A DNA stretch of 35,737 nucleotides, taken from an uncultured Oscillospiraceae bacterium (GTDB lineage: Bacteria; Bacillota; Clostridia; Oscillospirales; Acutalibacteraceae). This document shows, piece after piece, positions 3,399 to 35,070 of the stretch. Positions within the stretch are counted from its first letter, which is position 1. Each line of letters begins with the position of its first letter. Made by a program: the position numbers and the translations under genes. Under the pieces are notes generated by a model, which did not search any database, was not told the DNA's origin, and saw nothing but the letters and a program-made list of their open reading frames with translations. Where the stretch lies: positions 1-35,737 of the forward strand of contig CAOKRG010000027.1 of assembly GCA_948471095.1 (NCBI GenBank), given 5' to 3'.

Positions 3399-3561
3399 AG
3401 AACCTGTATCCATAGGCGGGGGATGCCGGGTGGGCGAGGAATTTTGCGGTCCAGCAAGGCAAAAAATCGCAGGAATGCTGGCGCATTGCAAGATTTTTTA
3501 ACGCCGCTGGACTGCAAAAGTCCCGCCCATACGGCGTCCATCGACTATGAATACAGGTTCT
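3399..3561. mobile_element. 163-bp MITE-like element with 17-bp terminal inverted repeats
   Basis: AGAACCTGTATCCATAG at 3399-3415 and CTATGAATACAGGTTCT at 3545-3561 are inverted repeats with one mismatch. Inside, TTTTGCGGTCCAGC and GCTGGACTGCAAAA form another 14-bp near-perfect inverted repeat, around an AAAAATC/GATTTTT pair. There is no ORF. The right end shares its last base with the lacI-family stop codon, so the element abuts the 3' end of that gene and may serve as its terminator. Related ends occur at 8179 and at 30176-30367. Confidence 0.75.
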
Positions 3562-4815: not shown

Positions 4816-4960
4816 CATTTTAACAAGAGAAAAGTTCGCTGAGTGCAACAGGAAAAGTTTTGTCCTTCTCAGCTGCCGCTTCGGTCGGTTCGTAGCTTGT
4901 GTGCCACTGGCACACACTCACCTTTTTCAAGAAGTGGACGAGTTATCCAAAGGATAACTC
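4816..4960 (+). repeat. Interspersed hairpin element B, full copy
   Basis: Begins TTTTAACAAGAGAAAAG and includes GTGCAACAGG and AGTTTTGTCC. It then has a hairpin with arms GTGTGCC (4899-4905) and GGCACAC (4909-4915), loop ACT, and a second hairpin with arms GAGTTATCC and GGATAACTC. The copy at 10684-10826, on the other strand, has GTCTGCC/GGCAGAC at the first position, a compensated base-pair change. Confidence 0.8.
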
Positions 4961-4961
4961 G

Positions 4962-5095
4962 TGGGTTCTTAGGGGGACTTGGCGAAGCCAACGTCATAAG
5001 CCCCTAAGCCGCCGGAGGGGGAAGGTCCCCAATGGGGACCGTTCTGACCACGAGTTGACTTTGTCAACTCGACCGAGCCGGGAGGCGAGACCCCA
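4962..5095 (+). repeat. Interspersed hairpin element A copy plus accessory hairpins
   Basis: Contains GTTCTTAGGGG, the TTGGC-GAA-GCCAA hairpin, CGTCATAAG and CCCCTAAGCCGCCGGAGG, as in the copy near 8179. It continues into two more perfect hairpins: GGTCCCC/GGGGACC with loop AAT, and CGAGTTGAC/GTCAACTCG with loop TTT. With the element B copy before it, this fills the gap between the LacI-family gene and the ACT operon; no gene is visible there. Confidence 0.8.
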
Positions 5096-7018: not shown

Positions 7019-8026
7019 ATGCCGCAGCGCGGAACAAACCAGAACTACCGCCGGAGCCGCTACACCTTAGGACCCGTGGGCGGGCTGCTGGTGCTGATCT
7101 TGCTGTTTTTCCTCTCCAGCCGGTTCAACCTTTCCGGCACGGCCCCCGAGGGAGTGGAGTCCGTCCCCCTGCCGGAAAGCCCCGGGGCGGAGCCCTTGCA
7201 GGTCTACTTCCTGGATGTGGGCCAGGGGGACAGCCAGCTGATCCGCATTCCGGGAGAGGCCGGGTACTTCAACGTGCTCATCGACACCGGGGAGTACCAG
7301 TATGCCGACGGCCTGACCGCCTACCTGGAGGGCCTGGGCGTGGAGCGCGTCGACGCGCTGATCGCCACCCACCCGCACACGGACCATATGGGCTGCATGA
7401 ACCGGGTCATTGAGCGCTTCGAGATCGGCGGGCTCTACATGCCCCTGCTGCCCGAGGACAAAACCCCCACCAGCGTGGGCTATGAAAAGCTGCTGGACGC
7501 GGCCTCCGCCAAGGGCCTGACCGTCAGTCCGCTTCATGAGGGCTCGGCCATCGAGAGCCCGGCGGGCTCCCAGTTCCAGGTTATGTCCCCCCAGGTGGAC
7601 GCGGACTGGGAGGGGGCCAACAACTACTCCGCCGTGATCCGGCTGGTATATGGGGGGACCGCCTTCCTCTTTACCGGAGATGCGGAGCAGGAGAGCGAGG
7701 AAATCATTTTGGAGGCGGGCTACCACCTGGATTCCGACGTGCTGAAAATGGGCCACCATGGGTCCAGCACCTCCACCTGCGAGGCCTTCTTCCAGGCGGT
7801 TTCGCCGGGGCACGCGGTGATCAGCTGCGGGGAGGGCAACCGGTACGGCCACCCCCACCGGGAGACCCTGGCCATGCTGAAGGAGGAGGGCGTCCCCTAT
7901 TACCGCACGGACCAGGACGGCACCATTTTGGCCCAAAGCGATGGGGCGGTCATTACATTTACCACCGGGCTGGACCCGGTGCTGGACCGGGACGCCTACC
8001 GGGCCGCGCAGAAGCGGGCCGCGTAG
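7019..8026 (+). CDS. Membrane-anchored MBL-fold hydrolase, ComEC C-terminal-like
   Basis: A 335-residue protein with one N-terminal membrane segment (about residues 19-38, GGLLVLILLFFLSS) and an extracellular metallo-beta-lactamase domain. The domain opens with YFLDVGQGDSQLI, as in the C-terminal domain of the competence protein ComEC/Rec2. The metal-binding motif THPHTDHMG follows near residues 117-125, then TGDAE (about 221) and KMGHHGSS (about 242). Homologous domains hydrolyse nucleic acid or phosphodiesters. It lacks the ComEC channel, so DNA uptake is not implied. AGGAGGG precedes the start. It is the third gene after ACT and PFL. Substrate unknown. Confidence 0.88.
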   Translation: MPQRGTNQNYRRSRYTLGPVGGLLVLILLFFLSSRFNLSGTAPEGVESVPLPESPGAEPLQVYFLDVGQGDSQLIRIPGEAGYFNVLIDTGEYQYADGLTAYLEGLGVERVDALIATHPHTDHMGCMNRVIERFEIGGLYMPLLPEDKTPTSVGYEKLLDAASAKGLTVSPLHEGSAIESPAGSQFQVMSPQVDADWEGANNYSAVIRLVYGGTAFLFTGDAEQESEEIILEAGYHLDSDVLKMGHHGSSTSTCEAFFQAVSPGHAVISCGEGNRYGHPHRETLAMLKEEGVPYYRTDQDGTILAQSDGAVITFTTGLDPVLDRDAYRAAQKRAA

Positions 8027-8114
8027 CCGGATGTTTGCAGTCGTTCCAAAGGACATAGTTTTTGGGAGTAATACGGAGTGGCCTCCGGCGGCCAGGGTTT
8101 CACCCTGGACTGGA

Positions 8115-8155
8115 CCAAACTTTTTGAAAAAAGTTTGGATCAAAAACTTTTAATG
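8115..8155 (+). repeat. Interspersed hairpin element C, 11-bp stem copy
   Basis: CCAAACTTTTT (8115-8125) and AAAAAGTTTGG (8128-8138) pair perfectly around loop GA. The tail CAAAAACTTTT could instead pair with the second arm. Other copies at 26171, 30439 and 32965 keep loop, core and tail but differ in both arms in a compensated way. Confidence 0.85.
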
Positions 8156-8178
8156 CCGCGCTTAGGGGGCTTTCTCTT

Positions 8179-8401
8179 AGAACCTGTATTCACAGCCGAA
8201 AACCGATTTACGCTGACAGTTAAAAATAGGAGAAATACGCGGTCCAGGGGCGTTAGGCCCCTGGTAGGGTTCTTAGGGGGACTTGGCGAAGCCAATGTCA
8301 TAAGCCCCTAAGCCGCCGGAGGCCACACATTACAAAATGGGCCGTAGGCCCACTTCGGGACATAGTCCCGATTTTGCTTTTCCTATCATTTAGCGCAGGA
8401 G
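8179..8401 (+). repeat. Interspersed hairpin element A, full-length compact copy
   Basis: Starts AGAACCTGTATTCACAG and runs through GCGGTCCAGG. Paired parts in order: CCAGGGGC/GCCCCTGG with loop GTTAG (8244-8264); CTTAGGGG (8272-8279) with CCCCTAAG (8305-8312), enclosing TTGGC-GAA-GCCAA; GCCGCCGGAGGCC; TGGGCC/GGCCCA with loop GTA; CGGGAC/GTCCCG. The copy on the other strand at 30176-30367 has the same order. This copy and its neighbours fill 8027-8705, where I see no gene. Confidence 0.85.
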
Positions 8402-8508
8402 TATAGTAAACACACTTAAAAATCGGTAGATACCGATTTTTAAGTTGGGCGGCTACGCCGCCTGGTTCAAAAGAGGTATTCTACCTCTTTTGAACTGTGT
8501 TAACTATA
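8402..8508 (+). repeat. 107-bp cloverleaf-like inverted-repeat structure
   Basis: An outer pair TATAGTAAACACA (8402-8414) and TGTGTTAACTATA (8496-8508) has one mismatch in 13. It encloses three hairpins. Arms ACTTAAAAATCGGTA and TACCGATTTTTAAGT have loop GA (8414-8445). GGCGGC and GCCGCC have loop TAC (8448-8462). GTTCAAAAGAGGTA and TACCTCTTTTGAAC have loop TTC (8465-8495). All three inner stems are perfect. There is no ORF. Confidence 0.85.
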
Positions 8509-8518
8509 ATATATACGA

Positions 8519-8559
8519 AACGAGGACGGAAAGCGGCGGGCTTTCTGTCCTCGTTCTTT
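8519..8559 (+). terminator. Terminator-like hairpin before the mazF-type gene
   Basis: AACGAGGAC, one mismatch, GAAAG pair with CTTTC, one mismatch, GTCCTCGTT around a GC-rich loop, followed by CTTTG. The U-tract is short, so termination is uncertain. It would separate the MBL operon and the repeats from the toxin gene. A second inverted repeat, GGAAGTTT/AAACTTCC at 8619-8648, follows it. Confidence 0.5.
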
Positions 8560-8705
8560 GTGGGGCGGCAACGGGCGCTCTCTGGAACCAATTCTTGTCC
8601 TTCTGAGTAGAATGGCATGGAAGTTTTTCCCCTCCTGTTTAAACTTCCCTGTTTCCGGTTAGAATAACGGTGAAAACAAAGGCAGGAAAGGAAAGTGGTT
8701 TCAAG

Positions 8706-9062
8706 GTGAACGTGCGCAGAGGAGACATCTATTACGCGGACCTGAGCCCCGTGGTGGGCTCCGAGCAGGGCGGCGTGCGCCCGGTGCTGATCATCCAAAA
8801 CGATGTGGGCAACAAGTTCAGCCCCACCGTGATCGCGGCGGCCATTACCAGCCAGCACGACAAGGCCAACCTGCCCACCCACATCGAGGTGGACGCCCAG
8901 GGCAGCGGACTGATTAAAGACTCCGTGGTGCTCTTAGAGCAGGTCCGCACCCTGGATAAACACCGGCTGCGGGAAAAAATGGGCAAGCTGGACTCCGACT
9001 CCATGAGCCGGGTGAACCAGGCCTTGTCCATCAGCTTCGGCTTGGGCCCTACATATGGTTAG
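8706..9062 (+). CDS. mazF: MazF/PemK/EndoA-type endoribonuclease toxin
   Basis: A 118-residue protein matching the EndoA (MazF) class of sequence-specific mRNA endoribonucleases. [20 protein letters not shown] at residues 3-22 includes the catalytic-loop Arg and the conserved [32 protein letters not shown] and [17 protein letters not shown] follow in family order. I chose GTG 8706 because it aligns exactly with the B. subtilis EndoA start and has GGAAAG ten bases upstream; a GTG at 8670 would add 12 residues. No EndoAI/MazE-like ribbon-helix-helix antitoxin is visible upstream, where there are only repeats. Its 3' end overlaps the convergent cca gene by 14 bp. Confidence 0.92.
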
Positions 9063-10444: not shown

Positions 10445-10625
10445 ATCAAACGGTAGGAAAAATTGCGCGGTCCAGGGGCTTACAACATTCGCTTCGCGAA
10501 GTTGACATTCGCTCCGCGAAGTTGACATTCGCTCCGCGAAGTTGGCCCCTGGCAGGGTTCTTAGGGGGACTTGGCGCAGCCAACGTCATAAGTCCCGACT
10601 TTGCTTTTCCTATCGTTTAGCGCAG
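10445..10625 (+). repeat. Interspersed hairpin element A with tandem array inside its loop
   Basis: CCAGGGGC (10472-10479) and GCCCCTGG (10545-10552) form the same stem as at 8244. The loop here is replaced by a tandem array with GCGAAG at 10496, 10516 and 10536, a period of 20. Each unit contains a TTCGC-NNN-GCGAA hairpin. The element then continues TTCTTAGGGG, TTGGC-GCA-GCCAA, CGTCATAAG and TTTGCTTTTCCTATCGTTTAGCGCAG, the last shared with 8379-8400. Confidence 0.85.
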
Positions 10626-10683
10626 AAGTAATATTTGAAGTGTTAGAAGGCCTTCATGCGCAAAGGCCGCGCATTACGGCAAG

Positions 10684-10826
10684 GCCGCGAGACTCTGTCT
10701 CGCGCTCTGCAACCTTTGAAAAGGGCGAGCGTCTGCCAGTGGCAGACAAGCTGCGAACCGACCGAGACGGCAGTCGAGAATGACGAAACTTTTCATGTTG
10801 CGCTCAGTTTGCTTTCTCTTTTACCA
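10684..10826 (-). repeat. Interspersed hairpin element B, minus-orientation copy
   Basis: On the minus strand it contains AAAAGAGAAAGC, GCGCAACA and CGGTCGGTTCGCAGCTTG. It also has the hairpin GTCTGCC/GGCAGAC (10731-10747 on plus, loop AGT), where the 4816 copy has GTGTGCC/GGCACAC. A further hairpin of GCGAGAC/GTCTCGC lies at 10686-10702. No gene is visible in 10396-10911. Confidence 0.75.
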
Positions 10827-11697: not shown

Positions 11698-11744
11698 AGG
11701 TTTTCACTCCAGTTAAGAGATATTTGGTCCGGCTATCACAAATC

Positions 11745-12069
11745 CGCAATGTGCGTCTCGCGCACGTTATGACATAAATCCGCTTGGAGCTTTCGCCGGA
11801 AGCAAAAGCCCGCGCCTCGCGCGAAGGGCAAAAACTCGCAATGTCAGCCTTGCGGACATTATAACATAAATCCGCTTTGAGTTTTGGCCGGATTTTTGCG
11901 AAGCAAAAACGAGCGCTTCGCGCGAAGGGCAAAAACTCGCAATGTCAGCCTTGCTGACATTATAACATAAATCCGCTTTGAGTTTTGGCCGTATTTTTGC
12001 GGAGCAAAAACGAGCGCTTCGCGCGAAGGGCAAAAACTCGCAATGTCAGCCTTGCTGACATTATAACAC
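11745..12069. repeat. Tandem repeat, period about 101 bp, three hairpins per unit
   Basis: AAATCCGCTT recurs at 11776, 11868 and 11969 (spacings 92 and 101). Each unit holds AATGTCAGC/GCTGACATT with loop CTT, TTTTTGC/GCAAAAA with a 3-nt loop, and the self-complementary CTTCGCGCGAAG. The first copy of the leading hairpin (from 11747) has AATGTGCG paired with CGCACGTT instead. Repetitive minus-strand open frames here are by-products. No gene lies in 11698-12506. Confidence 0.9.
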
Positions 12070-12132
12070 ATCGGTGCAAAAAAGTCCAGGGCGAAAGGCG
12101 GCGGGGCCGCGCCGCGCGCCCCGCTTTTTTTC

Positions 12133-25855: not shown

Positions 25856-25868
25856 GGCGTCCATCGCG

Positions 25869-25985
25869 GCCCAGGGGCTTGCAACATTCGCCTTGCGAAG
25901 TTGACGTTCGCTTTGCGAAGTTTGACGTTCGCTCCGCGAAGTTGACGTTCGCTCCGCGAAGTCAGGCCTTTTGGCGGGACAGCCG
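25869..25985 (+). repeat. Interspersed hairpin element A, array-rich copy
   Basis: After GCGGCCCAGGGGCTTGCAAC, GCGAAG recurs at 25895, 25915, 25936 and 25956. The hairpin arms TTCGC and GCGAA are constant while the loop triplet changes (CTT, TTT, TCC, TCC). The closing stem arm is degraded (AGGCCTTTTGG). The rest of 25986-26170 holds further short hairpins (for example GTGGGAC/GTCCCAC near 26150) and no gene. Confidence 0.85.
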
Positions 25986-26170
25986 GCCCCTTCCATAGCG
26001 GCTGGCCACGGTAAGCGGTCCACTGTTTCCGCTGCGCGGAAAGGCGTTAGAGAACGCGGCGCGGTCCGGGCGGCGCTATAGACGCTTCGCGTATGAACGG
26101 CTGCGATGCTCTAAGCAGAGATACCTGCGCCGCGTAAGGGCAAGGCCGTGGGACTTTGTCCCACACCCTA

Positions 26171-26225
26171 GGTAAGGAACTTTTTGAAAAAAGTTCCTTA
26201 CCAATCTTCAAAAACTTTTGCCGCT
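26171..26225 (+). repeat. Interspersed hairpin element C, 15-bp stem copy
   Basis: GGTAAGGAACTTTTT (26171-26185) and AAAAAGTTCCTTACC (26188-26202) pair perfectly around loop GA, followed by the tail CTTCAAAAACTTTTGCCGC. It lies about 115 bp before the sensory-type hydrogenase start codon. Confidence 0.85.
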
Positions 26226-29603: not shown

Positions 29604-30176
29604 ATGCGGGAACTTTCTCTGAACGTAATGGACATTGCCCAAAACTCCATATCCGCCGGGGCGGGCCTTATCGCCATCCAGGTGGAGGAAGACCGGGATG
29701 CGGATACCCTGTCCATCTCCATCCGGGACGACGGCCGGGGCATGACCCCGGAGCAGGTGGAGCACGTGACCGACCCCTTCTTTACCACCCGCACCACCCG
29801 GAGCGTGGGGCTGGGGGTGCCGCTCTTTAAAATGGAGGCGGAGATGACGGGGGGCAGCTTCTCCATCCAGTCCAGGCTGGGGGAGGGCACGGTTACCACG
29901 GCGGTGTTCAAGCCCTCCAGCGTGGACATGATCCCCCTGGGGGACATCAACGGAACCGTCAACATGCTGGTGATGATGAACCCGGACCTGGACTTCCGAT
30001 ACACCCGCCGGTATACGCCCCCCGATGGGGAGCCCAGGGAATTCAGCCTGGACACCCGGGAGCTGCGGCAGGTGCTGGGAGAGGACGTGCCCCTAAACAT
30101 GCCGGACGTAACCCAGTGGGTAAAGGAATACCTGGAAGAAAACACCCGCGAGCTCCTAGATGGAGAGCCAAGCTAA
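29604..30176 (+). CDS. HATPase-domain protein, hydrogenase-associated
   Basis: A 190-residue protein whose first ~115 residues are a histidine-kinase-type ATP-binding domain. The N box is MDIAQNSISAGAGLI, G1 is DDGRGMT, and G2 is RSVGLGVPLFKMEAEMTGG. No phosphoacceptor His domain or membrane segment is present. The last ~80 residues (from about NGTVNMLVMMNPDLDF) form an extra domain without a clear match. AAGGAG lies just upstream, 11 bp after the 48-aa ORF. With the 25424 gene it makes two ATPases in one locus, perhaps kinases or regulators of the hydrogenase. The stop codon merges with the end of a repeat element. Confidence 0.88.
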   Translation: MRELSLNVMDIAQNSISAGAGLIAIQVEEDRDADTLSISIRDDGRGMTPEQVEHVTDPFFTTRTTRSVGLGVPLFKMEAEMTGGSFSIQSRLGEGTVTTAVFKPSSVDMIPLGDINGTVNMLVMMNPDLDFRYTRRYTPPDGEPREFSLDTRELRQVLGEDVPLNMPDVTQWVKEYLEENTRELLDGEPS

Positions 30177-30367
30177 GAACCTGCATTCATACATTTTAGC
30201 AAGAGAAATTCCGGGGTCGGGACTACGTCCCGATAAGGGCCTACGGCCCATTTAAGGACGGTATGGCCTCCGGCGGCTTAAGGCTCTGCCTTAAGAATCC
30301 GCCAGGTGCCTAACGCACCTGGACCGCGAATTCTTCCTACCATGACCAGCTGCGAGTACAGGTTTCT
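30176..30367 (-). repeat. Interspersed hairpin element A, full-length minus-orientation copy
   Basis: Ends AGAACCTGCATTC (from 30176) and GTACAGGTTTCT (to 30367) are inverted relatives. Stems: CCAGGTGC (30302-30309) with GCACCTGG (30315-30322), loop GTTAG on the minus strand; CTTAAGGC (30277-30284) with GCCTTAAG (30288-30295); GGGCC/GGCCC; CGGGAC/GTCCCG. The order matches 8179-8401, with compensated base changes. Its first base is the last base of the upstream stop codon. Confidence 0.85.
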
Positions 30368-30426
30368 AGCGGTGGACCACCCAGCTTCCCCCCACCAATC
30401 CGGCCCATAAAAGCAAACAGTGAAAG

Positions 30427-30470
30427 TTTTTGAAGATTGTTAAGAAACTTTTTTCAAAAAGTTTCTTAAC
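30427..30470 (-). repeat. Interspersed hairpin element C, minus-orientation copy
   Basis: GTTAAGAAACTTTTT (30439-30453) and AAAAAGTTTCTTAAC (30456-30470) pair perfectly, with loop GA on the minus strand. The tail CTTCAAAAACTTTC also reads on the minus strand. A further hairpin, GTGAGAC/GTCTCAC, follows at 30476-30492. hndB starts 50 bp downstream with AGAGGAG at 30501-30507. Confidence 0.85.
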
Positions 30471-30519
30471 CAGAGTGTGAGACAGCGTCTCACGACCTTA
30501 AGAGAGGAGCAGAACTTAT

Positions 30520-30900
30520 ATGAAATCTTTAGCAGAACTCCAGGCCATTCGCGACAAGGCCCGGGCTTCCGTCAACATTCGGGAGAACGCCGGGGCCGAG
30601 ACCCGCGTGATGGTGGGCATGGCCACCTGCGGCATCGCCGCCGGGGCCCGTCCGGTCCTCAACGCCTTTGTGGAGGAAGTGGCCAAGCGGGGCCTTAAGG
30701 ACACCATGGTCACCCAGACCGGCTGCATCGGCATCTGCCAGTACGAGCCCGTGGTGGAGGTGGTCACCCCCGGCAAGGAGAAGGTCACCTATGTGAAGAT
30801 GACCGCCGAAAAGGCCGTGCGGGTGGTCAACGACCACTTGGTCAACGGCAATGTGGTCACGGAGTATACAATCGGCGCCAACGCCATTGGCGCGAAATAA
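30520..30900 (+). CDS. hndB: HndB-like thioredoxin-fold subunit
   Basis: A 126-residue thioredoxin-like ferredoxin domain protein resembling HndB of Desulfovibrio NADP-reducing hydrogenase. The cluster-binding region has TCGIAAGARPVLNAF and TGCIGICQYEP. Only three Cys lie at typical ligand positions, because the second Cys of the first loop is Ala. As far as I recall, CGIAAGAR is characteristic of HndB and not a defect, though the cluster may be atypical. It lies 18 bp before hndC and is translated from AGAGGAG after a repeat-filled 343-bp gap. Its role in bifurcation is less defined than that of the other subunits. Confidence 0.88.
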   Translation: MKSLAELQAIRDKARASVNIRENAGAETRVMVGMATCGIAAGARPVLNAFVEEVAKRGLKDTMVTQTGCIGICQYEPVVEVVTPGKEKVTYVKMTAEKAVRVVNDHLVNGNVVTEYTIGANAIGAK

Positions 30901-30918
30901 GAATTGGAGGTATAACCT

Positions 30919-32709
30919 ATGTTCCGTTCCAACGTACTTGTCTGCGGCGGCACCGGCTGCACCTCCTCCAACAGCGAGCAGATCATCGAGAAGCTCAACG
31001 AGGAGATCAAGGCCCAGGGCCTGGATAAGGAAGTCAACGTCATCCGCACCGGCTGCTTCGGCCTGTGCGCTTTGGGCCCCATCATGGTGGTCTATCCCGA
31101 GGGCGCGTTCTACAGCCGCGTCACCCCCGAGGACGTGCCGGAGATCGTCTCCGAGCACCTCTTGAAGGGCCGCATCGTCACCCGCCTGCTGTACCAGGAG
31201 ACCGTGGTGGACGAGAACACCACCAAGAGCCTGAACGAGACCAAGTTCTATGCCAAGCAGATGCGCATCGCCCTGCGCAACTGCGGCGTGATCAACCCGG
31301 AGCTCATCGACGAGTACATCGCCCAGGACGGCTACGCCGCTCTCGGCAAGGTGCTGACCGAGATGACCCCCCAGCAGGTCATTCAGACCATGCTGGACTC
31401 CGGCCTGCGCGGCCGCGGCGGCGCGGGCTTCCCCACTGGCCTTAAGTGGAAATTCGCCGCCGCCAACCAGGCGGACCAGAAGTACGCCTGCTGCAACGCC
31501 GACGAGGGCGACCCGGGCGCGTTCATGGACCGCTCCGTGCTGGAGGGCGACCCCCACAGCGTGCTGGAGGCCATGGCCATCGCGGGCTACGCCATCGGCG
31601 CGTCCCAGGGCTATATCTACATCCGGGCCGAGTACCCCATCGCCGTGAAGCGCCTGCAGATCGCCATCAACCAGGCCCGGGAATACGGCCTGCTGGGCAA
31701 GAACATCTTCGATTCCGGCTTTGACTTTGACATCGACATCCGTCTGGGCGCGGGCGCTTTCGTGTGCGGCGAGGAGACCGCGCTGATGACCTCCATCGAG
31801 GGCAAGCGCGGCGAGCCTAGGGTTCGTCCTCCCTTCCCGGCGCTCAAGGGCCTGTTCGGCAAGCCCACGGTGCTCAATAACGTGGAGACCTACGCCAACA
31901 TCCCCCAGATCATCTTAAAGGGCGCGGACTGGTTCCGCTCCATCGGCACCGAGAAGTCCCCCGGCACCAAGGTCTTCGCTTTGGGCGGCAAGATCACCAA
32001 CACGGGCCTGGTGGAGGTTCCCATGGGCACCACCCTGCGCGAGGTTGTTGAGGACATCGGCGGCGGCGTGCCGGACGGCCACACCTTTAAGGCGGCCCAG
32101 ACCGGCGGCCCCTCTGGCGGCTGCATCCCGGCCAGCCTCATCGACACCCCTATCGACTATGACAACCTGATCGCCATCGGCTCCATGATGGGCTCCGGCG
32201 GACTGATCGTGATGGACGAGACCACCTGCATGGTGGATATCGCCAAGTTCTTCCTGGAGTTCACCGTGGACGAGAGCTGCGGCAAGTGCACCCCCTGCCG
32301 GGTAGGCACCAAGCGCCTGCTGGAGATCTTGGACAAGATCACCAAGGGCAACGGCACCCTGGAGGACATTGACAAGCTGGAGGAGCTGTGCTACTACATC
32401 AAGGAGAACTCCCTGTGCGGCCTGGGCCAGACGGCCCCCAACCCGGTGCTCTCCACCCTGAAATATTACCGCGACGAGTACGAGGCCCATGTGACCGAGC
32501 ACCGCTGCCCGGCCGGAGCCTGCAAGGCGCTGACCAACTTCCATATCGAGGCCGACAAGTGCAAGGGCTGCACCCTCTGCGCCCGCAACTGCCCGGTGGG
32601 GGCCATCTCCGGCAAGGTGAAGGAAGCCCATGTGATCGACACCGAGAAGTGCATCAAGTGCGGCGTGTGCATGGAGAAGTGCAAGTTCAACGCCGTTGTG
32701 AAAAAATAA
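30919..32709 (+). CDS. hndC: HndC/NuoF-like flavin subunit of electron-bifurcating hydrogenase
   Basis: A 596-residue subunit that binds FMN and NAD(P)H and is thought to be the bifurcation site in related Hyd/Hnd enzymes. Domains in order: thioredoxin-like [2Fe-2S] (CGGTGCTSSN; TGCFGLCALGP); NADH/FMN domain (GLRGRGGAGFPTGLKW; CCNADEGDPGAFMDRS; GAGAFVCGEETALM); [4Fe-4S] with CGKCTPCRVG and a later Cys in NSLCGLGQ; and a C-terminal ferredoxin domain with two [4Fe-4S] motifs (CKGCTLCARNCP; CIKCGVCMEKC). GGAGG precedes the start. The layout matches HydB/HndC, and length is as expected. Electrons from NAD(P)H and reduced ferredoxin would pass to HndD. Confidence 0.95.
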   Translation: MFRSNVLVCGGTGCTSSNSEQIIEKLNEEIKAQGLDKEVNVIRTGCFGLCALGPIMVVYPEGAFYSRVTPEDVPEIVSEHLLKGRIVTRLLYQETVVDENTTKSLNETKFYAKQMRIALRNCGVINPELIDEYIAQDGYAALGKVLTEMTPQQVIQTMLDSGLRGRGGAGFPTGLKWKFAAANQADQKYACCNADEGDPGAFMDRSVLEGDPHSVLEAMAIAGYAIGASQGYIYIRAEYPIAVKRLQIAINQAREYGLLGKNIFDSGFDFDIDIRLGAGAFVCGEETALMTSIEGKRGEPRVRPPFPALKGLFGKPTVLNNVETYANIPQIILKGADWFRSIGTEKSPGTKVFALGGKITNTGLVEVPMGTTLREVVEDIGGGVPDGHTFKAAQTGGPSGGCIPASLIDTPIDYDNLIAIGSMMGSGGLIVMDETTCMVDIAKFFLEFTVDESCGKCTPCRVGTKRLLEILDKITKGNGTLEDIDKLEELCYYIKENSLCGLGQTAPNPVLSTLKYYRDEYEAHVTEHRCPAGACKALTNFHIEADKCKGCTLCARNCPVGAISGKVKEAHVIDTEKCIKCGVCMEKCKFNAVVKK

Positions 32710-32790
32710 AGCGGGGAAAGCGGAATGGCCCGGGCGCGCGGGCGAAAGCTAAGAATGCCGGCTTAGAGGCAACGCCCTAATAAACTATGG

Positions 32791-32996
32791 GGCAAGCCCT
32801 CAAAATGAGCACTAGCCCGCGCCCCACCCTTCGCGCAACGGGGTAAAAGTCTTTGAAGGTTCTTAAGAAACTTCCTTAGACGAACCATGGCGCGCAAAGC
32901 CCTCAAACCGAGCGCTTGCCCGCGCCCCACCCTTCGCGTAACGGGGTAAAAGTCTTTGAAAATTCTTAAGAAACTTTCTTCAGAAAGTTTCTTAAG
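32791..32996 (-). repeat. Two direct repeats of about 100 bp containing element C
   Basis: GCCCTCAAA, CCGCGCCCCACCCTTCGCG and ACGGGGTAAAAGTCTTTGAA recur at 32791-32872 and 32893-32976, offset about 102 bp. The second copy carries a complete element C hairpin: CTTAAGAAACTTTCT (32965-32979) and AGAAAGTTTCTTAAG (32982-32996), minus-strand loop GA. The first copy has only one arm. The 380-bp gap between hndC and hndD holds no gene. Confidence 0.85.
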
Positions 32997-33089
32997 CCGC
33001 CGGAGGCCAGAATACCCGTACCCCGCAGAGTTTTCCCAACCCTTAAGCCAAGACCCGAGAGTAACCCGGAAAGGATTGATTATAAGTCT

Positions 33090-34832
33090 ATGGATATGGT
33101 CAACGTTAAAATCAACGGCGTGGACTATCAGGTGCCCAAGGACGCCACCATTCTGGAGGCCGCCCGGTTTGCCGGCATCGATATCCCCACCCTGTGCTAT
33201 CTGAAAGACATCAACCAGATCGGCGCGTGCCGCATGTGCATGGTAGAGGTCAAGGGGGCCCGCTCCCTGTGCGCCGCCTGCGTGTACCCGGTCAACGAGG
33301 GCATGGAGGTGCTCACCAACTCCCCCAGAGTCCAGGAGTCCCGGAAGATGACCCTGGAACTGCTGCTCTCCGTGCACGAGCGCAAGTGCCTGACCTGCGA
33401 GCGCAGCGGCAACTGCGAGCTGCAAAAGCTGTGCGCCGACATGGGCATTGAAGAGGACAGCCGCTTCGAGGGCGTGACGCCCGCGGGCAGCAAGGACCTC
33501 TCCACCAGCTATCTGGAGCGCAACAACGCCAAGTGCGTGCTGTGCCGCCGCTGCGTGGCCGCCTGCCAGAACCAGCATGTGGCGGTCATCGGCGCAAACA
33601 ACCGGGGCTTTGACACCGAGATCGGCTGCGCCTTTGAGAACACCCTGGATAATGTGTCCTGCGTGGCCTGCGGCCAGTGCATCGTCAGCTGCCCCACCGG
33701 CGCGCTGACCGAGAAGGACAACACCCAGGAGGTCATCGACGCCATCAACGACCCCGAGAAGATCGTGATTGTCCAGACCGCCCCCGCCGTGCGCGCGGCT
33801 CTGGGCGAGGAGTTCGGCCTGCCCATCGGCACCAATGTGGAGGGCAAGATGGCCGCCGCCCTGCGCCGCCTGGGCTTTGACAAGGTGTTCGACACCGATT
33901 TCGGCGCGGACATGACCATCATGGAGGAGGCCCACGAGTTCATCGACCGGGTGAAGAACGGCGGCGTGCTGCCCATGATCACCTCCTGCTCCCCCGGCTG
34001 GATCAAGTTCTGCGAGCACTACTACCCGGACCTGCTGGATCATCTGTCCAGCTGCAAGTCCCCCCAGAACATGGCGGGCGCCCTCATTAAGACCTGGTAC
34101 GCGGAGAAGGAGGGCATCGACCCCCAAAAGATCGTCTCCGTGTCCGTCATGCCCTGCACGGCCAAGAAGTTCGAGATCAAGCGGGACGACGAGGCTGCCG
34201 CCGGCCTGCCGGACGTGGACATCAGCATCACCACCCGGGAGCTGGCAAGGCTCATCAAGAAGGCCCAGCTGAACTTCAACGCCCTGCCCGATGAAAAGTT
34301 CGACGACGCCATGGGCGTTTCCACCGGCGCGGCGGTGATCTTCGGCGCTACCGGCGGCGTAATGGAGGCCGCCCTGCGCACCGCCGCGGACGTGCTCACC
34401 GGCGAGAGCCAGGAATCCATCGAGTACAACGAGATTCGCGGCACCGAGGGCATTAAGGAGGCCGTGTACAACGTGGCCGGCATGGACGTGAAGGTAGCCG
34501 TGGCCAGCGGCCTCTCCAACGCCGACAAGATTCTCAAGAAGGTCCGGGCCGGCGAGGCGGACTACCAGTTCATTGAGATCATGTGCTGCCCCGGCGGCTG
34601 CGTCAACGGCGGCGGCCAGCCGGTCCGCAGCGCCAACGACTGGGCATACAACGACATTAAGACCCTGCGCGCCAAGGCCCTGTACGACCAGGACAAGGCC
34701 ATGCCCCTGCGCAAGTCCCATGACAACCCCGTGGTGAAGAAGTGCTACGAGGAGTTCCTGGGCGAGTCCGGCAGCCACAAGGCCCACGAGATCCTCCACA
34801 CCAGCTATGTGAAGCGGGGCAATCAGTTCTAA
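33090..34832 (+). CDS. hndD: [FeFe]-hydrogenase catalytic subunit HndD/HydA (group A)
   Basis: A 580-residue enzyme producing or consuming H2. Domains: N-terminal [2Fe-2S] (LCYLKDINQIGACRMC); the His-ligated cluster (HERKCLTCERSGNCEL); two [4Fe-4S] motifs (CVLCRRCVAACQ; CVACGQCIVSCP); then the H-cluster domain with TSCSPGW, MPCTAKKFE and MCCPGGCVNGGGQP. A small C-terminal domain ends HKAHEILHTSY. The first H-cluster loop has Ser where many enzymes have the second Cys (TSCCPGW). AAAGGA lies 14 bases upstream of ATG 33090, a slightly long spacing. It is the last gene of the HndABCD set, with a terminator at 34854. The complex is probably NAD(P)- and ferredoxin-linked. Confidence 0.96.
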   Translation: MDMVNVKINGVDYQVPKDATILEAARFAGIDIPTLCYLKDINQIGACRMCMVEVKGARSLCAACVYPVNEGMEVLTNSPRVQESRKMTLELLLSVHERKCLTCERSGNCELQKLCADMGIEEDSRFEGVTPAGSKDLSTSYLERNNAKCVLCRRCVAACQNQHVAVIGANNRGFDTEIGCAFENTLDNVSCVACGQCIVSCPTGALTEKDNTQEVIDAINDPEKIVIVQTAPAVRAALGEEFGLPIGTNVEGKMAAALRRLGFDKVFDTDFGADMTIMEEAHEFIDRVKNGGVLPMITSCSPGWIKFCEHYYPDLLDHLSSCKSPQNMAGALIKTWYAEKEGIDPQKIVSVSVMPCTAKKFEIKRDDEAAAGLPDVDISITTRELARLIKKAQLNFNALPDEKFDDAMGVSTGAAVIFGATGGVMEAALRTAADVLTGESQESIEYNEIRGTEGIKEAVYNVAGMDVKVAVASGLSNADKILKKVRAGEADYQFIEIMCCPGGCVNGGGQPVRSANDWAYNDIKTLRAKALYDQDKAMPLRKSHDNPVVKKCYEEFLGESGSHKAHEILHTSYVKRGNQF

Positions 34833-34929: not shown

Positions 34930-35070
34930 GAGGGGGCCTCCGGCGGCCAAGTTCATCAAAAATGAACTTGCGGGACTTACGGCATTCGCTGCGCGAAGTC
35001 CCCTAAGGACCCGCCAGGGGCCAACCTCGCGAAGCGAACGTTGTAAGCGCCCGGACCGCGCAATCGTTGT
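34930..35070 (-). repeat. Interspersed hairpin element A, minus-orientation copy
   Basis: On the minus strand: GCGCGGTCCGGGCGCTTACAAC, one TTCGC-TTC-GCGAG unit, GGCCCCTGG, CCTTAGGGGACTTCGC. The inner hairpin is TTCGC-GCA-GCGAA (34985-34997) instead of TTGGC-GAA-GCCAA, a compensated G-C to C-G swap. A further AAGTTCAT/ATGAACTT hairpin sits near 34950. No gene lies in 34893-35305. Confidence 0.8.

Follow-up and report, generated by a model that had tools for sequence, protein, structure and literature searches.

REP, BIME and REPIN repeats are abundant extragenic palindromes, and in this they are like the repeats considered here (PMC2817692 and PMC3116915 are among the papers on such repeats). 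An unpaired GTAG or CGTC tag is a feature of REP elements; in the same account GTAG repeats are linked to RAYT genes and come in sub-families with alternative complementary stem residues, the frequent GT pairing in GTAG repeats is read as a sign of transcription, and CGTC repeats are said to be without a dedicated transposase (PMC3733652). Streptococcal BOX elements are described as modular and strongly folding, with a variable count of tandem internal modules, and the present repeats resemble them in these respects; in BOX elements, however, boxB units are placed between boxA and boxC (PMC3049150), whereas the modules described below are nested, one module's hairpin loop holding another module. 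The closest analogy in behavior is with the palindromic GC clusters of yeast mitochondrial DNA, small hairpins that are GC-rich, mostly intergenic and mobile, have constrained stems, and for which merger and shuffling are reported (PMC4478555). What sets the present repeats apart from GC clusters is their residence in a bacterial chromosome, their different sequences, the two-sided changes of their arms, and the fact that they are carried in part by a transposon with target duplication. One further precedent concerns mechanism: template switching between hairpin arms is reported to make compensatory changes in a single event (PMC8794818).

The window (the whole stretch of DNA analyzed, 35,737 nucleotides, contig C27) belongs to an Acutalibacter genome (family Acutalibacteraceae according to NCBI) of 2.52 Mb in 83 contigs, 86.6% complete. 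In this window the initial annotation had listed seven places (101-145, 4962, 8179, 10445, 25869, 30176 and 34930) as copies or fragments of a ~200-bp element, and copies or fragments are indeed present at every one. The repetition is real, but not the unit: the copies are mosaics, of which only that at 30176 has both ends (one of them imperfect) and that at 8179 the left end only, while at 4962, 10445, 25869, 34930 and 101-145 the modules occur in incomplete sets that lack the ends. The further suggestion of a mobile or REP-like element, lying in both orientations beside unrelated genes, is supported, and genomic copies are many (64 pieces matching 8179-8401 by blastn in its own genome). The earlier observation stands, and we read its object as a genus-specific variation on known kinds of repeat, a MITE that carries and shares nested palindromic modules. 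As an explanation of the whole, a community of non-autonomous mobile DNA in two layers is probable.

The 223-bp query is found in 12 of 118 genomes, its own and 11 more, every one of the same genus. With one mismatch allowed, a search of 394 genomes of the order for the core of module X (see below) yields 91 matches in the window's genome, 96 in G021 and 24 in G001; outside the genus there are 1 or 2 matches in 27 genomes (the reversed control gives 1 in 5 genomes), and the left end of X is present at none of 17 loci checked there. When up to two mismatches are allowed, G021 has 113 matches (2 for the reversed control) and the window's genome has 104 (1 for the control). The repeat families have 90 to 180 sites each within one genome. 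Plasmids and phages are without match to 8179-8401, and viral contigs are without match to one stem 1 pattern. Rfam identifies tRNA only in the whole window, no family for the element, and nothing in 7900-8700 at E up to 1; a search of the literature did not find these Acutalibacter repeats described.

Ends and bodies of the miniature element

The terminal inverted repeat AGAACCTGTATTCA occurs at 92 sites in the genome when up to two mismatches are allowed, versus 3 for the reversed pattern. The stretches of the genome that were sampled contain 32 inward-facing pairs of ends, 109-357 bp long (two pairs share one right end). With the element taken as GAACCTG...CAGGTTC, 20 of the 32 pairs are flanked by exact target duplications of 3 bp that fit TNA, versus 1 of 32 for the control, which consists of the next three bases. 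Relatives have exact duplication at 8 of 10 end pairs and at 0 of 10 in the control (the listing has 9 of 11, but one locus, L253, is a copy of the window's genome and is left out).

TNA is the target rule of IS5, and the likeness to an IS5-type MITE extends to the short, paired terminal inverted repeats and, in a sister species, to ends of this kind around a DDE_Tnp_1 remnant. This remnant lies in G021, of the same genus, in a decayed 580-bp element that is among the duplicated pairs of the relatives and is flanked by TAA/TAA; the enclosed match to PF01609 (DDE_Tnp_1, E 1.2e-8) has two stops. Two features are unlike an IS5-type MITE: one of the two bodies found here is a mosaic of independent palindromes, and the window's own 87%-complete genome has no PF01609 match. 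This first layer is almost certainly a miniature transposon.

Two types of body share the same ends. The simple one, ~160 bp, is represented at 3399..3561 (163 bp, no strand assigned), an end pair of the pair tables with the duplication TCA/TCA. The other contains five hairpins, although hairpin number and order vary between element copies. At 8179..8398 on the plus strand it is present as a truncated copy that keeps the left terminal inverted repeat (8179..8192, plus strand, exact AGAACCTGTATTCA) and is missing the right one; none of the tabulated pairs supplies a partner for its left end, and its right edge at 8398 is placed by eye against complete copies. Both terminal repeats are found in the minus-strand copy at 30176..30367, whose start coincides with the stop codon of the gene upstream; one of its ends has an extra base, and the corresponding pair (30177-30365) is without exact target duplication. 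That an element often abuts a stop codon, as seen at 30176 and at 3560/3561, fits the TNA target (TAA/TGA).

For 6 of the 28 element rows that could be classified, a predicted gene ends 1 base away (the gene calls are heuristic). The 30176 element has a HATPase_c gene on one side and, on the other, a gene whose 2Fe-2S thioredoxin-like match is weak (29604-34832), with an iron-only hydrogenase gene further along on the same strand. Downstream of the 8179 element, at 8670-9062, there is a PemK/MazF-like gene (type II toxin-antitoxin).

Hairpin modules and their nesting

The second layer is made up of hairpin modules (the stem 1/stem 2 unit, W/Y, X and Z), which are present in the element, outside it and within each other's loops, most copies being mosaics. 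In the 8179 copy all parts are on the plus strand. Stem 1 occupies 8238..8264 (CGCGGT followed by CCAGGGGC/GTTAG/GCCCCTGG) and is backed by flank-located pair counts and by covariation over 38 distinct rows. Stem 2, CTTAGGGG/CCCCTAAG, follows at 8272..8312 with module W (GACTTGGCGAAGCCAATGTCATAAG) in its loop at 8280-8304. Stem 3 (CCGCCGGAGGCC, 8313..8324) has received module X in other copies, just as stem 5 (CGGGACATAGTCCCG, 8356..8370) has received module W; between them lies stem 4 (GGGCCGTAGGCCC, 8339..8351), and the segment 8335-8371 is the inverted match of 30217-30253.

The partial copies of the window are assembled from such parts. Stem 2 with W and then stem 3, without element ends, make up 4963..5018 (plus strand, 98% identity to 8267-8322). 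At 10466..10630 (plus strand) the loop of a stem 1 holds three Y hairpins in tandem; next come the left arm of a stem 2, carrying W, and a tail also present at 8364-8403. At 25865..25964 (plus strand) the left arm of stem 1 precedes four tandem Y hairpins. In the minus-strand copy at 34935..35061, its edges counted by eye, stem 1 carries Y and stem 2 carries the TTCGC/GCGAA hairpin, and module Z and stem 3 are also present. At the contig edge, 1..140 (plus strand) is taken up by a run of Y hairpins and then module W; tandem arrays of the Y hairpin are located near 13-89, 10488-10544 and 25886-25964.

The W/Y pattern has 177 sites genome-wide, the reversed pattern none. Of 87 sampled W sites, 44 occupy the apex of a perfectly paired host stem 6 or more pairs long, versus 40 of 1584 control positions (2.5%), the hosts being chiefly stems 1, 2 and 5. 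Stem 2 occurs empty (CTTAGGGGC-AGA-GCCCCTAAG) as well as filled, either with W or with module X (~56 bp). Judged by eye, X has at least five contexts, namely stems 1 to 4 and an additional hairpin; only 12 of 39 candidates, a few of which resemble chance matches, have a host stem that is perfectly paired over 6 or more pairs at their site (control 29 of 741). In G021 the loop of stem 1 holds another hairpin, AAACTTGGC...GCCAAGTTT. Versions of stem 1 and stem 2 are found in many combinations. The modules are arranged within one another's loops and are, very probably, separately mobile. (The question that this nesting poses is what inserts a hairpin into another hairpin's loop.)

Paired changes, module movement and competing explanations

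Both five-hairpin copies fold strongly: 8179-8401 folded as RNA has z -4.47, with 0 of 200 dinucleotide shuffles as good, and 30176-30367 (minus strand) folded as DNA has z -3.96, with 1 of 200 as good. The three paired changes originally noticed between copies are real, the second with a qualification. The first, CCAGGGGC/GCCCCTGG versus CCAGGTGC/GCACCTGG with the loop GTTAG, is that of stem 1, for which all 31 short-loop copies in the window's genome are fully Watson-Crick (248 of 248 pairs), stem 1 having been located by its flanks and by the likeness of at least one arm to the consensus (6 of 8), with no use made of pairing. In the second, CTTAGGGG versus CTTAAGGC, the stem lengths differ and the 8179 stem has a hairpin inserted in its loop. 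The third, TTGGC/GCCAA versus TTCGC/GCGAA, distinguishes two subfamilies of one hairpin module.

In these short-loop copies of stem 1, pair 6 is G-C in 18 and T-A in 13, and pair 2 is C-G in 28 and A-T in 3. Long-loop copies of the same genome are fully paired in 16 of 31 cases; in relatives the corresponding figures are 21 of 23 for short and 1 of 8 for long loops, with pair 6 of the short-loop copies G-C in 14, T-A in 4, A-T in 2, C-G in 1 and T.G in 2. Pair 6 is matched in 31 of 31 short-loop copies versus 17 of 31 with a module between the arms (Fisher p 1.8e-5). Those 17 are more than the 10.0 that independence would give (permutation p 0.002), and 6 of the 14 unpaired copies constitute one A.A subfamily.

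The 29 short-loop copies of stem 2 read TTAGGGGC/GCCCCTAA (14), TTAAGGC/GCCTTAA (6), TTAGGGAC/GTCCCTAA (4) and TTAGGGC/GCCCTAA (2), or are imperfect (3); a G-C to A-T change of this stem is found in two stem backgrounds. Full pairing over 7 pairs holds for 26 of 29 short-loop and 26 of 32 long-loop copies (9 more long rows with a right arm lacking TAA were dropped), so that loop length has no significant effect (p 0.48), and this comparison does not support template switching. In W/Y the inner variable pair is C-G in 48, G-C in 39 and A.A in 1, that is, 87 of 88 paired versus 43.5 expected if the two sides were independent; the outer pair is paired in 77 of 88, versus 55.2 expected.

The covariation alignment comprises 38 distinct two-hairpin units out of 61 rows and 13 pairs, or 494 cells (stem 2 is counted for its inner five pairs only, owing to gaps); the copies being related, neither copies nor cells are independent events. 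Standard pairs fill 99.0% of the cells (shuffled mean 89.9), and standard pairing drops to 21.9-58.3% when partners are slid. Two-sided changes are found at 6 of 13 pairs (shuffled mean 3.5; 1 of 500 shuffles as high) and in 38 of 494 cells (shuffled mean 8.0; 0 of 500 as high), which places the covariation above that of shuffles; further pair types do not exceed them (48 of 500 as high). One-sided standard-pair changes account for 2 of the 494 cells, wobbles for 3 and unpaired states for 5. Mismatches on the element strand are G.T in 7, A.C in 17 and others in 14 (p 0.06 for G.T versus A.C, counting copies, not events).

Two-sided stem changes are normally taken as strong evidence for functional RNA, and the initial annotation took these changes to mean that a folded molecule is under selection. 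That conclusion is not established: one-step states are rare and G.T is not in excess over A.C, and a functional RNA is, by the same two observations, not indicated. Such an RNA (a small RNA, an attenuator or an mRNA 3'-end structure, with selection on RNA maintaining the pairing) would agree with pairing that is preserved with covariation across the genus, with the strong folding, and with the location of element rows, 0 of 28 classified ones lying within predicted genes. Selection on RNA of the element strand would favor G.T, however, and an excess of G.T is therefore expected, and not the 7 versus 17 that is found; Rfam is without match, hairpin number and order are variable, and orientation relative to genes follows background without preference (tandem 19, convergent 5 and divergent 4 of 28 rows, versus 70, 20 and 19, by an ORF heuristic that leaves 4 of 32 rows at an edge unclassified). 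A functional RNA is very unlikely; a processed RNA from the element may exist. Alternatively, no mechanism of correction need be invoked if a few old founder versions of the hairpins were spread by transposition and shuffled by recombination, the covariation then being inflated by copy number. In keeping with this, the W/Y module falls into two subfamilies, and single-mutant intermediates are absent at its inner variable pair; the many combinations of stem 1 and stem 2 versions and the lack of a significant loop effect in stem 2 also agree. On the other hand, stem 1 pair 6 shows all four Watson-Crick pairs in relatives, and this, together with the stem 2 change in two backgrounds, requires several events; the founder explanation is somewhat doubtful. 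An origin of the paired changes at the level of DNA is favored by the small number of one-sided and wobble cells, the lack of G.T excess, the difference between short and long loops of stem 1, the absence of an orientation preference, and the existence of a published mechanism. The arms of a compact hairpin would template each other in replication (quasipalindrome correction), generating matched arm changes, and whole hairpins would be swapped between copies, which again yields paired changes; selection, if any, would act on the DNA hairpin as a mobilizable unit and not on a transcript. Template switching together with hairpin exchange is the reading that we favor, at about even odds of being the main source of the covariation.

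Movement of the modules can be considered along similar lines. They, and X above all, could be passengers of the IS200/IS605 type, in which a Y1 (HUH) transposase cuts single strands, subterminal hairpins are recognized, and joining takes place 3' of a short target (GG) with no target duplication, as proposed for REP, REPIN and palindrome-associated elements. Sampled X copies are preceded by GG in 30 of 32 cases and by AG in 2 of 32, target duplication is not visible by eye, a 7-bp hairpin near the left end of X (GTCTGCC/GGCAGAC) is perfect in 25 of 27 located copies, single-stranded loops would be natural targets, and the window's genome has one Y1_Tnp match, near a contig end. Yet any of five module probes is found at only 1 of 10 Y1_Tnp loci (in stretches of up to ~1.5 kb per side), and the X-bearing genomes G014, G024, G026 and G007 are without a Y1_Tnp match (three of them are 85-87% complete), so that passengers of this type are unlikely. 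The nine loci without a module neighborhood are also a point of difference from REP/RAYT systems, as are nesting in loops and the lack of a G.T excess. Inspection by eye shows no unpaired GTAG or CGTC tag at W or at stem 1; the first hairpin of X does read ...CGTC in 25 of 27 copies, but the GTC belongs to the stem. Searches for Y1_Tnp, IS110, TnpB, PF01609 and PF02371 did not find the enzyme that moves the modules (for IS110 and TnpB nothing fitting was seen, and PF02371 has no match in the window's 87%-complete genome). A more specific proposal, namely that these are genus-specific mobile hairpins with another hairpin's loop as their preferred target, nesting recursively, moved by a single-strand or RNA-mediated mechanism, and with arms matched by replication template switching and not by selection, is doubtful. 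Repeat families in which covariation goes together with signs of a DNA-level origin are a natural case on which to test how covariation scans may call RNAs falsely, and whether template switching gives rise to compensatory changes.

Further repeats of the window

The sole module neighborhood among the 10 Y1_Tnp loci is in G010 (L228:1334), where a W hairpin lies ~150 bp from the Y1_Tnp match. In the window itself, a further composite repeat, with module X in it, is present in two inverted copies of 92 nt, 4839-4930 and 10716-10807, which are 85% complementary. Another repeat family is represented by a 77-nt inverted pair, 26142-26218 and 30423-30499, which is 86% complementary and built around a hairpin of the AAGAAACTTTTT/AAAAAGTTTCTT type. 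A tandem repeat of ~101 bp is present in three copies at 11737-12101, and at 32794-32980 a stretch of 84 nt is duplicated in tandem with 103-bp spacing.
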